Positions 8,254 to 54,650 of a stretch of 64,000 nucleotides of DNA are shown one piece after another. This stretch comes from Rhizobium sp. Q54 (GTDB lineage Bacteria; Pseudomonadota; Alphaproteobacteria; Micropepsales; Micropepsaceae): NCBI GenBank assembly GCA_945860165.1, contig CAMAPL010000013.1, positions 1 through 64,000 on the forward strand, in the 5' to 3' direction. The notes below the pieces were generated by a model. It was not told the origin of the DNA, did no database searches, and saw nothing but the letters and a program-made list of their open reading frames with translations. A program made the translations under genes and the position numbers. The first letter of the stretch is position 1, and each line of letters starts with the position of its first letter.

Positions 8254-8329
8254 TGGTGGGTGATGCAGGGATCGAACCTGCGACAAGCTGATTAAGAGTC
8301 AGCTGCTCTACCAACTGAGCTAATCACCC
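8254..8329 (-). tRNA. tRNA-Lys(CTT)
   Basis: A complete 76-nt cloverleaf with encoded CCA. The acceptor stem is GGGTGAT/ATCACCC, the D arm is AGCTCAGTTGGTAGAGC, the anticodon arm is GCTGA/TCAGC around CTCTTAA (anticodon CTT, Lys codon AAG), and the T arm carries GGTTCGATCC. It appears intact. It marks the start of conserved chromosomal gene order to the right. A hairpin GGCCTC/GAGGCC at 8367-8384 lies between it and rodA. Confidence 0.97.
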
Positions 8330-21129: not shown

Positions 21130-22149
<1,020 letters not shown>

Positions 22150-22263: not shown

Positions 22264-22791
22264 TTACATAGCCTCCGGGCCGCGGGAAATCGCGGCGACG
22301 CCGGTACGGGACACATCTACCAGGCCTAGCGGACGCATCAGTTCGATAAAGCTGTCGATCTTGGCGGGGGCGCCGGTGATCTCGAAGACAAAGCTGGCAT
22401 GGGTTGTATCGACGGGACGGGCGCGGAAGGCGTCGGCCATGCGCAGCGCCTCGACCCGCTTTTCGCCGGTGCCGGCCACCTTGATCAGCGCCATTTCGCG
22501 CTCGATGCCGGCCTTGGCGCTGGTCCAGTTGGTCACGGCATGGGTGGGCACCAGGCGGCGTAGCTGGCTTTCGATCTGTTCGATCACCTCGGGCGTGCCG
22601 CTGGTGACGATGGTGATGCGCGATGTGCGCGCCATCGGATCAACTTCGGCCACCGTCAGGCTTTCGATATTGTAGCCGCGGCCCGAAAACAGCCCGACCA
22701 CGCGCGCCAGCACGCCCGCCTCATTGTCCACCAGGACAGTAAGGGTGTGGCGCTCATTCTCGGCGCTCTGCTTGATCTTGGTATCGTGCAT
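22264..22791 (-). CDS. ilvH: Acetolactate synthase regulatory subunit
   Basis: The small subunit that confers valine feedback inhibition on the IlvB catalytic subunit. It is 175 residues from MHDTKIKQ; an in-frame extension into ilvB lacks homology. The ACT domain begins at HTLTVLVDNEAGVLARVVGLFSGRGYN, with the segment ESLTVAEVDP following. A second ACT-like C-terminal domain is present (FVFEITGAPAKIDSFI). The start codon is one base after the ilvB stop, so the two subunits are co-translated. Confidence 0.95.
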   Translation of the reverse strand: MHDTKIKQSAENERHTLTVLVDNEAGVLARVVGLFSGRGYNIESLTVAEVDPMARTSRITIVTSGTPEVIEQIESQLRRLVPTHAVTNWTSAKAGIEREMALIKVAGTGEKRVEALRMADAFRARPVDTTHASFVFEITGAPAKIDSFIELMRPLGLVDVSRTGVAAISRGPEAM

Positions 22792-22792
22792 C

Positions 22793-24592
22793 TCAGACCA
22801 GCATCTTTCCGGCGTCGCTGATCTCGCCCCCATCGTCCGGCGACAGCAGCATCTCATTATGCGCCGCACCAGACGGGATCATGGGATAGCAGTTCTCGGT
22901 CGGATCGACGCGACAGTCGAACAGCACCGGCCGCCTGACGCTGAGCATTTCCTGGATCTTGCCGTCCAGTTCCGACGGCTTGTCGGCGCGCAGACCGACG
23001 CAGCCAAAGGCATCCGCCATCTTGACGAAATCGGGCAGCGCCTCGGAATAGGAATGCGAATAACGCTTGCCGTGCAGGATTTCCTGCCATTGGCGCACCA
23101 TGCCCATATATTCGTTGTTCAGGATGAAGATCTTGATCGGCAGTTCGTACTGCATCGCGGTCGACATTTCCTGCATGGTCATCTGCACGCTGGCTTCGCC
23201 GGCGATGTCGATCACCAGCGCATCCGGATGGGCGATCTGCACGCCCACCGCCGCCGGCAGGCCATAGCCCATGGTGCCGAGGCCGCCGGAGGTCATCCAG
23301 TGGTTGGGCTCGTTGAAATGGAAACGCTGCGCCGCCCACATCTGATGCTGGCCGACTTCCGTCGTCACATAGACGTCCGAGCGGTGCTTGGTCAGTTCAT
23401 ACAGCCGGTCGATGGCATGTTGCGGCTTGATGATGCTGTCGGAATTTCGATAGGACAGCGACTTCTTCCCGCGCCACTGGTTGATCTGCGCCCACCACTC
23501 CTTCAGCGCCGCGCCCTGGACCTTGTGCTTCTGGGTCTTCCAGAAGCGGACCATCTCGCACAACGCCTTGGTGGCGTCGGCCACGATGGGCAGGTCCACC
23601 CGCACGATCTTGTTGATCTGCGAGGCGTCGATATCCAGGTGGATCTTCTTCGACTTGGGCGAGAAGGAACTTACCTTGCCGGTGCAGCGGTCGTCAAAGC
23701 GCGCGCCCAGGCAGATCATCACGTCGCAATCATGCATGGCGTGATTGGCTTCCCAGGTGCCGTGCATGCCCAGCATGCCCAGCCATTCCGGACGCGATGC
23801 CGGAAAGGCGCCCAGCCCCATCAGGGTCGAGGTCACCGGAAAGCCGGTCAGGTCCACCAGCTCGCGCAGCAGCGCGGACGCCTCAGGCCCGGAATTTATG
23901 ATGCCGCCGCCAGTATAGAAGAGCGGCTTCTTCGCCGCCGCCATCATCTCCACCGCCTTGACGATGGACGACAGGTCGGGATCGGTCTTGGGGCGATACG
24001 TGCGGTGATGGACAGACTGCGGCCCCAGATAGGAACCAGTCTGGAACTGCACATCCTTGGGAATATCGACCAGCACCGGACCCGGGCGGCCCGTGGTGGC
24101 GATCTCGAACGCCTCGTGCAGCACGCGGCTCAGATCGCCGATGTGCCGCACCAGCCAGTTGTTCTTGGTGCAGGGCCGTGTGATGCCGACCGTGTCGCAT
24201 TCCTGGAAGGCGTCGGTGCCGATCAGATGCGTCGGCACCTGACCGGTCAGCACCACCAGCGGAATGGAATCCATCAGCGCGTCGGTCAGGCCGGTCACGG
24301 CATTGGTGGCGCCGGGACCGGAGGTCACCAGCACTACGCCGGGCTTGCCGGTGGAGCGGGCATAGCCTTCGGCGGCATGGACCGCGCCCTGTTCGTGGCG
24401 CACCAGCACATGGGTGATGCCTTCGACCTGGAACAGCGCGTCATAGATCGGCAGCACCGCGCCGCCGGGATAACCGAAGATGTGGGTGACGCCCTGATCC
24501 TTGAGCGCACGGATGACCATCTGCGCCCCGCTCATCGCCTGGGCGCTTTCCGCGGCAGCCACCGCGTCCTTCAATGTATCGTCCATGTCCAT
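22793..24592 (-). CDS. ilvB: Acetolactate synthase catalytic subunit
   Basis: A ThDP-dependent enzyme making acetolactate and acetohydroxybutyrate. The 599-residue protein starts at the ATG preceded by GAGGGACGGTC. The N-terminal Pyr domain has FGYPGGAVLPIYDAL and the catalytic Glu in HVLVRHEQGAVHAAEGYAR. The central FAD domain and the C-terminal PP domain follow, with LGTMGYGLPAAVG and the ThDP-motif segment containing GEASVQMTMQE then NNEYMGMVRQWQ. A leader peptide with Leu-Val-Ile codons and a terminator hairpin precede it. Confidence 0.97.
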   Translation of the reverse strand: MDMDDTLKDAVAAAESAQAMSGAQMVIRALKDQGVTHIFGYPGGAVLPIYDALFQVEGITHVLVRHEQGAVHAAEGYARSTGKPGVVLVTSGPGATNAVTGLTDALMDSIPLVVLTGQVPTHLIGTDAFQECDTVGITRPCTKNNWLVRHIGDLSRVLHEAFEIATTGRPGPVLVDIPKDVQFQTGSYLGPQSVHHRTYRPKTDPDLSSIVKAVEMMAAAKKPLFYTGGGIINSGPEASALLRELVDLTGFPVTSTLMGLGAFPASRPEWLGMLGMHGTWEANHAMHDCDVMICLGARFDDRCTGKVSSFSPKSKKIHLDIDASQINKIVRVDLPIVADATKALCEMVRFWKTQKHKVQGAALKEWWAQINQWRGKKSLSYRNSDSIIKPQHAIDRLYELTKHRSDVYVTTEVGQHQMWAAQRFHFNEPNHWMTSGGLGTMGYGLPAAVGVQIAHPDALVIDIAGEASVQMTMQEMSTAMQYELPIKIFILNNEYMGMVRQWQEILHGKRYSHSYSEALPDFVKMADAFGCVGLRADKPSELDGKIQEMLSVRRPVLFDCRVDPTENCYPMIPSGAAHNEMLLSPDDGGEISDAGKMLV

Positions 24593-24627
24593 GACCGTCC
24601 CTCGAAATTCCAATGCTCGTAATTCCA

Positions 24628-24656
24628 CCAAAGATAAAGGGGCGTTTCCGCCCCTT
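24628..24656 (-). terminator. Rho-independent attenuator terminator before ilvB
   Basis: Reading the minus strand, AAGGGGCG (24649-24656) pairs perfectly with CGCCCCTT (24637-24644) around a GAAA tetraloop, followed by TTTATCTTT. The 8-bp GC-rich stem and T-rich tail are 36 bp upstream of the ilvB ATG, between leader peptide and gene, as expected for a conditional terminator. Confidence 0.75.
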
Positions 24657-24688
24657 GTCCGCATGGCCGCCCTGCCCAAAACGAAGCG

Positions 24689-24736
24689 TCAGCTTCGTTG
24701 GGTGTGCGGCCTGGAAATTACGAGCTTTGCGTTCAT
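24689..24736 (-). CDS. ilvB leader peptide (15 aa, contains Leu-Val-Ile)
   Basis: A 15-codon ORF encodes MNAKLVISRPHTQRS. Codons 5 to 7 are CTC-GTA-ATT: one codon for each branched-chain amino acid in a row (24716-24724). Its TGA stop lies in the loop of the following hairpin. Because IlvB serves all three amino acids, starvation for any of them would stall the ribosome at this point. No ribosome binding site is visible; with the promoter immediately upstream, leaderless initiation is likely. Confidence 0.68.
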   Translation of the reverse strand: MNAKLVISRPHTQRS

Positions 24737-24779
24737 GGCGGCGGAACTTAAGGATGCTGCGGCGCGGCGTCAAGCAATT

Positions 24780-25688
24780 TCACGCAGAAATTTTGCCAAA
24801 TTTCGCAATAATATTACTATTTAATGGGTCATACCAGATATAATGTGGCATACGGTTGCGAAACCACGTCATCTGGCGTTTGGCGAATTGCCGTGTCGCG
24901 GTGATGGCGGCGCCCAGCGCCTCGGCCTGGCCCAGATCCCCGGCGGCCAGGGCCTGCAGGGGCCGAAGGCCCAGAAGCTTGGCGGCCGGCAGGGCGGGGT
25001 CCAGACCGGCCAGCGCGGCGGCCTCTTCAAGCCCGCCCTGCTCCACCATCTGTTCAAAGCGCCGGGCGATGCGGGCGCGCCGCTCGCCGCGCGGCGGGTC
25101 CAGCACAAAGGCTGCAAGCCTGCCGCCCAGGATGGGTTGGGTGGGGGCGCCTTGCCATTGCGCCAGGGGACGCCCCGTCGCCTCGAACACTTCATAGGCA
25201 CGCAGCACCCGCTGCGGATCGCTGGGCCGCAGCCTCGATGCGGTCAGCGGATCGCGCTGCGCCAGGCGCGCATGCAAGGCCTCCACCCCCATCTCTTCCA
25301 GCAGGCCACGCGCGGCATCGCGTATGGCGGCGGGGATTGGCGGGATGTCGGCCAGGCCGTCGGTCAGGACGGAAAAATACATGCCGGTGCCGCCGACAAA
25401 AATCGGAATGCGGTTCATGGCGCGCACCTTCGCCAGCGCCGCGATGGCATCGTCACGCCAGCGCCCCACCGAATAGACCTCGCTTGCGCTGACATGGCCG
25501 TACAGAAAATGCGGCACGCGGGCCTGATCTTCGCGCGATGGCTGCGCCGTAAGGATGGGCGCTTCGCGATAGACCTGCATGGAATCGGCATTGATGATTG
25601 CGCCGTTGATCGCTTGCGCCAGCGCCAGCGCCTCGCGCGACTTGCCGCTGGCGGTGGGGCCTGCAATAAGAACGGCGTCAAATTCCAT
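24780..25688 (-). CDS. miaA: tRNA dimethylallyltransferase
   Basis: Adds a dimethylallyl group to A37 of tRNAs reading UNN codons. The 302-residue protein starts at MEFDAVLIAGPTASGKS (Walker A 10-17). The long open frame extending upstream is antisense to serB and lacks homology. Family motifs: INADSMQVYREAPILTAQP, VGGTGMYFSVLTDGL, ASRLRPSDPQRVLRAYEV and the RQFAKRQMTWFRN substrate segment near the C-terminus. Its start codon is only 9 bp from the divergent serB start, with no visible ribosome binding site. It ends 44 bp upstream of the ilvB leader. Confidence 0.93.
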   Translation of the reverse strand: MEFDAVLIAGPTASGKSREALALAQAINGAIINADSMQVYREAPILTAQPSREDQARVPHFLYGHVSASEVYSVGRWRDDAIAALAKVRAMNRIPIFVGGTGMYFSVLTDGLADIPPIPAAIRDAARGLLEEMGVEALHARLAQRDPLTASRLRPSDPQRVLRAYEVFEATGRPLAQWQGAPTQPILGGRLAAFVLDPPRGERRARIARRFEQMVEQGGLEEAAALAGLDPALPAAKLLGLRPLQALAAGDLGQAEALGAAITATRQFAKRQMTWFRNRMPHYIWYDPLNSNIIAKFGKISA

Positions 25689-54490: not shown

Positions 54491-54650
54491 GGACGGTACC
54501 GTATTCGCCGTTGGTATCGGATCTCATGGGCCTGCAAGTGCAGGTGGGCGTCGTATGTCCGGAACCACGGCTCCAGCCAGGAACAACTCCCGATGAGTAC
54601 AATTAAGGCCCCTGGGCATCGCAACCTGACGCGCGAGACAGTGACCGTCC
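54491..54650 (-). ncRNA. ssrS: 6S RNA
   Basis: A 160-nt gene on the minus strand between zapA and the formyl-THF cyclo-ligase gene, the classical 6S RNA location. Its ends pair perfectly: GGACGGT (54644-54650) with ACCGTCC (54491-54497), forming the closing stem. The 3' half contains CATACGACGCCCACCTGCA followed by CTTGCAGG, a hairpin-bearing block like the conserved ACGAC/CACC region of 6S RNAs. The middle can form the long interrupted helix around an open bubble that mimics promoter DNA. The role, sequestering sigma-70 RNA polymerase, is known for the family. The ends are inferred from pairing. Confidence 0.75.

Follow-up and report, generated by a model that had tools for sequence, protein, structure and literature searches.

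Directly upstream of ilvB in the window (the whole stretch of 64,000 nucleotides that was analysed) lies a short region, 24593-24773 on the minus strand, which raises the question of whether ilvB is preceded by an amino-acid-sensing attenuator and, if so, how translation of its leader peptide would begin. The gene directly upstream, miaA, is on the same strand and ends at 24780, and the gene order after the leader is ilvB-ilvN-ilvC. A miaA gene also precedes ilvB in several other alphaproteobacterial families examined. The parts of the region and the genes that follow it are:

24768-24773, minus strand: -35 hexamer TTGACG, 6 nt past the miaA stop codon (from the sequence)
24745-24750, minus strand: -10 hexamer TAAGTT, with a 17-nt spacer to the -35 (comparative table of 56 genomes)
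24689-24736, minus strand: leader peptide ORF of 15 codons, MNAKLVISRPHTQRS and a stop, with its ATG at 24736, 8 nt past the -10 box
24716-24724, minus strand: control codons CTC GTA ATT (Leu-Val-Ile; leader comparison)
24665-24711, minus strand: hairpin H1, outer arms GGCCGC/GCGGCC and inner arms ACGAAGC/GCTTCGT (folding and covariation)
24637-24656, minus strand: intrinsic terminator stem-loop AAGGGGCG-GAAA-CGCCCCTT, an 8-bp GC stem (sequence and alignment)
24628-24636, minus strand: T-rich terminator tail TATCTTTGG, which includes TATCTTT (from the sequence)
24615-24626, minus strand: GGAATTACGAGC, the stretch ahead of the ilvB Shine-Dalgarno site, a 12-bp complement of the control-codon stretch 24713-24725
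24595-24603, minus strand: GAGGGACGG, probable ilvB Shine-Dalgarno site (from the sequence)
22793-24592, minus strand: ilvB, acetolactate synthase large subunit (NCBIfam TIGR00118, 788.6 bits against a cut-off of 538)
22264-22869, minus strand: ilvN/ilvH small subunit as the listed ORF (TIGR00119, 165 bits), with the true start probably further in, at ~22750
21130-22146, minus strand: ilvC, ketol-acid reductoisomerase (TIGR00465, 430 bits)

The promoter, the 15-codon ORF with CTC-GTA-ATT, the hairpin over its stop and the 8-bp terminator that a first-pass annotation had described were all confirmed in the sequence, on the minus strand. Folding places the TGA stop of the leader within the apical loop of H1. 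The promoter TTGACG-N17-TAAGTT is likewise as described, but 8 bases, not nine, separate the end of the -10 box from the A of the ATG. The exact terminator pattern occurs once in the genome. The leader region has a folding energy z-score of -5.28 relative to dinucleotide shuffles, and none of 2000 shuffles of these bases contained both a terminator of this kind and a short ORF carrying a Leu/Val/Ile triplet. Thus, with all parts also kept in relatives (see below), the arrangement is not a product of chance. Rfam covariance models gave no match up to an E-value of 10 in 24540-24800. An imperfect direct repeat, GGAATTACGAGC ATT GGAATTTCGAGG, was also observed at 24597-24626, abutting ilvB, and its second copy includes the Shine-Dalgarno bases.

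The relatives were collected by a DNA search of 60, and 30 leader sequences were aligned. The aligned relatives retain the promoter, the leader ORF, H1 and the terminator, as well as the position, length (15-17 codons) and stop of the ORF; the terminator stem is conserved in all 30 sequences, and the promoter comparison found the TTGACG -35 in nearly all genomes of the genus, G034 being an exception. Nine of the 18 consensus pairs in the alignment show changes on both sides, most of them in H1, so that the covariation looked for across related genomes is present in this hairpin. Loss of the terminator from close relatives, which the first-pass annotation had named as evidence against an attenuator, was tested for and not found; the exact Leu-Val-Ile triplet is lost, whereas a block of branched-chain codons persists. 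A covariance model built from the genus leaders, R1, detects a single copy per genome in 59 of the 69 genus genomes, with ilvB confirmed 3′ of the leader for the tabulated copies. In the ten genomes without the leader (G002, G003, G011, G013, G018, G022, G354, G431, G432 and G438, several of which are >95% complete) no acetolactate synthase large subunit scores above the TIGR00118 cut-off, which G000 (the genome of the window) and G035 do pass. Consequently, the leader element and ilvB are gained or lost together. Among seven of these ten genomes that were examined, six retain ilvC; the ten might be auxotrophic for branched-chain amino acids or might use a divergent enzyme. The possibility that the inverted repeat marks the ends of a mobile palindromic element was also considered and rejected, as the genome contains a single copy of the sequence and the presence of the element follows that of ilvB.

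The composition of the codon block was compared across the same leaders. The earlier proposal of a three-input sensor with one codon for each amino acid does not describe a conserved design: Leu-Val-Ile is species-specific, and the control blocks of relatives read LVLI in most cases, and also LVVI, LVII, VVVI, LVVT and LVVL. Among the control codons only the valine codon GTA is invariant, with 59/59 genus leaders carrying it; the automatic table used GTA to set the frame, and visual inspection showed it in the three leaders left over (G031, G034 and G444) as well. GTA was likewise found in 19/19 other alphaproteobacterial ilvB leaders, which had been chosen without a GTA requirement (loci L112-L176). 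By comparison, GTA makes up 1.2% of the valine codons in the genus ilvB genes, 1.0% in other alphaproteobacterial ilvB genes and 2.9% in the genes of the window. By the codon rules GTA is decoded by tRNA-Val(UAC), and since the tRNA-Val genes of the window's genome are single copies with the anticodons UAC, GAC and CAC, this tRNA is its sole reader. The near-universal use of a rare codon at this position points to charging of tRNA-Val(UAC) as the main signal. Reasons for control-codon bias have been discussed previously (PMC1183508). Still, codon content alone is no proof of sensing, because changes to the candidate control codons of Streptomyces coelicolor ilvB are described as having had no effect (as cited in PMC1262725).

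The relationship to known attenuators was examined with R1. Among named alphaproteobacterial ilvB loci, the model matches the leaders of Caulobacter sp. Root655 (E 4e-6) and Hyphomonas (E 6e-5), as well as Microvirga and others, in each case in the correct place before ilvB; with a strict filter on 385 genomes of the class, little was found outside the genus. The leaders of the Caulobacteraceae share ATC GTA CTT, followed by GAGCGGCCG. The window leader resembles the Caulobacter attenuator, which likewise precedes ilvB in an alphaproteobacterium, in its short peptide with branched-chain codons (GTA CTT in Root655), and in a stop placed in the H1 loop with a terminator after it. It differs in that in the Caulobacter-family leaders an untranslated 5′ stretch containing GGAG precedes the peptide, which begins with GTG, whereas the window leader is near-leaderless. 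It also resembles the E. coli ilvBN (ivbL), leu, his and trp attenuators, in which a leader peptide with control codons is followed by a terminator before the operon. Unlike the window leader, the E. coli attenuators have a Shine-Dalgarno start, mostly more control codons and a recognised antiterminator pairing. For C. crescentus, PMC4117421 presents the ilvBN leader as an attenuator of the classical kind in which Ile and Val codons stand in tandem, with reference to Tarleton, Malakooti and Ely 1994. Therefore, given the R1 matches to Caulobacter and other Alphaproteobacteria, the window leader is not a new system but homologous to the ilvBN attenuator described in Caulobacter. Two public records under the names Rhizobium sp. 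Q54 and Mucilaginibacter sp. (L107 and L108) encode IlvB proteins 95% and 88% identical to that of the window and also carry its attenuator; the Mucilaginibacter label at least, which denotes another phylum, looks wrong.

The start of the leader peptide was compared in more genomes. Between the -10 box and the start codon of the leader lie 7-8 nt in 29 genomes (26 tabulated, G015 and G437, read by eye and both 8 nt, and G444) and 22-45 nt in 28 (27 tabulated and G031), with G061 in between at 10 nt. G034, which lacks a TTGAC at the usual place, was left unclassified by gap and is labelled as long-form in the IlvB tree. The genomes with a gap of 22-45 nt carry an AGG- or GGG-like, Shine-Dalgarno-like tract before the start codon. 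The window has CCGCCGCC directly 5′ of its ATG, and a Shine-Dalgarno tract is absent there. The 8-nt gap stays the same in genomes with an 18-nt rather than a 17-nt -35/-10 spacer, which argues that the distance is measured from the transcription start. The near-leaderless start is thus well supported by comparison, with the start codon 7-8 nt past the -10 box in 29 species, and on these sequence grounds the sensor peptide very probably begins at the first base of the RNA. In an IlvB tree rooted on one outgroup the deepest rows are of the long form, and three changes suffice to account for the distribution. The long Shine-Dalgarno form is therefore the likely earlier state and the leaderless form the derived one, a direction of change that is not firm because many forks in the tree are weak.

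The first-pass annotation had called the leaderless start an unusual arrangement for a sensor. This does not hold, as the same 8-nt spacing was found in the ilvB leaders of Mesorhizobium sp. J18, Aquibium and Nitratireductor, and leaderless attenuator peptides are known in Corynebacterium glutamicum ilvBNC (PMC11857589) and Sinorhizobium meliloti trpL (PMC7298713). The C. glutamicum ilvBNC attenuator has a 15-residue leader with Ile, Val and Leu codons (PMC11857589; Morbach et al. 2000), its transcription begins a single nucleotide away from the start codon of that leader, and its three-hairpin model is supported by mutations (PMC11857589). However, it belongs to another phylum, its leader RNA is longer (292 nt) and it has more control codons; the likeness is one of arrangement. 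S. meliloti trpL/rnTrpL is an alphaproteobacterial attenuator whose RNA begins at the leader AUG, and ribosome profiling indicates that trpL is translated; it differs in serving a tryptophan operon and in that its released RNA and peptide act in trans (PMC7298713, PMC10117765). The window leader adds a well-documented near-leaderless member to the alphaproteobacterial ilvB attenuators. As one genus holds leaderless and Shine-Dalgarno forms of a homologous attenuator, with almost none between, the effect of the initiation mode on attenuation could be tested on matched pairs.

Taken together, the region is with high probability a ribosome-mediated transcription attenuator of ilvB (and of ilvN and ilvC, if these are co-transcribed), homologous to those of other Alphaproteobacteria including Caulobacter. 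The proposal of an ilvB attenuator draws support from conservation, codon content, the terminator and the homology with ilvB leaders of other Alphaproteobacteria. Further support comes from the anatomy of the region, the covariation of H1, the co-loss with ilvB and the rare-codon bias. It is a conserved, amino-acid-sensing type already known in Caulobacter and elsewhere, and very likely functions as an attenuator. The steps that we infer for it, namely the 5′ end, the stall, an antiterminator structure and the response to amino acids, would run as follows. Transcription would begin at or within ~3 bases of the leader AUG, and a ribosome would load on this 5′-terminal AUG without a Shine-Dalgarno site. 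With ample charged branched-chain tRNAs, above all tRNA-Val(UAC), the ribosome would reach the stop codon in the loop of H1, and transcription would end at the terminator that follows this hairpin. Conversely, when these tRNAs are uncharged, the ribosome would stall on CTC-GTA-ATT, the terminator stem would be kept from forming and ilvB would be transcribed.

The antitermination step was studied by folding. The untranslated RNA by default forms H1 and the terminator, and folding of the leader revealed no clear mutually exclusive antiterminator helix. When a ribosome mask was applied in equilibrium folding, the terminator formed at every ribosome position; the test is uninformative, because the proven E. 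coli trp, his, leu and ilvB attenuators give an identically flat answer, and it was dropped. In a kinetic-style test the RNA was instead folded just before the 3′ arm of the terminator is made, and the pairing of the 5′ arm was scored. In the window's genome the sequestration of the 5′ arm was 0.64 with the ribosome at the control codons and 0.34 with the ribosome at the stop. The same direction was seen in 49 of 56 genomes and in the four E. coli controls; the effect is small across the genus, and the pairing partner of the 5′ arm is not conserved. The test is a weak one: the untranslated state also sequesters the 5′ arm (genus mean 0.69), unlike in most of the E. coli controls.

Other readings of the region have to be weighed against the attenuator. 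The position of miaA directly upstream on the same strand, and the outcome of a terminator search which detected no terminator-like site between miaA and ilvB other than that of the leader, would be compatible with a hairpin that merely terminates miaA, beside a small ORF that arose by chance. We consider this extremely improbable, as conservation over ~59 species extends to the promoter, the start and stop positions of the ORF, the rare GTA and H1, none of which a miaA terminator would need, and the presence of the element tracks ilvB. It is likewise quite unlikely that the real transcript begins further upstream, miaA read-through included, with the leader initiated in the ordinary way. Read-through RNA could indeed arise, there being no terminator between miaA and the leader, but such an RNA would offer no Shine-Dalgarno tract before the leader ATG. 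Moreover, the 7-8 nt gap is held in 29 species irrespective of the spacer length, whereas the species with longer 5′ ends do have the AGG/GGG tract.

A further reading concerns the translation of ilvB. In the window 24713-24725, which spans the control codons, can form a 12-bp helix with GGAATTACGAGC that is used by the minimum free energy fold. Ilv regulation might thus occur partly at ilvB translation: without a ribosome on the leader, the control codons would pair with this stretch before the ilvB Shine-Dalgarno site and close the leader into one long structure. A helix of 7-12 bp in the same register is present in most of the 14 closest genomes, although a shifted helix scores longer in G001. 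The duplex energy of the helix was not significant against shuffles, since GC-rich leaders always find some duplex, and a register test was used in its place; here 83% of cells were paired, compared to 27-48% in slid registers. On the other hand, covariation is weak (a single pair with a two-sided change, a result that shuffles equal), a register comparison found the helix absent from the rest of the genus beyond this 14-genome subclade, and the ilvB Shine-Dalgarno site itself lies outside it. Regulation by this route is accordingly judged unlikely, and the helix could either add another level of control or simply result from the conservation of the sequences next to it. Returning to the attenuator, we only tentatively suggest a broader and rather unlikely scheme in which the leaderless start is part of its logic. 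Only RNAs from the ilvB promoter, with their 5′-terminal AUG, would be read and antiterminated, whereas miaA read-through RNA, devoid of a Shine-Dalgarno site, would always terminate; the genus would have switched from a Shine-Dalgarno leader, and one subclade would have gained a further layer in the helix between the control codons and the ribosome site of ilvB.

Elsewhere in the window, a 6S RNA gene was identified at 54492-54647 on the minus strand (Rfam RF00013, 55.6 bits), and a tRNA-Lys (CTT) gene is located at 8257-8329, also on the minus strand.
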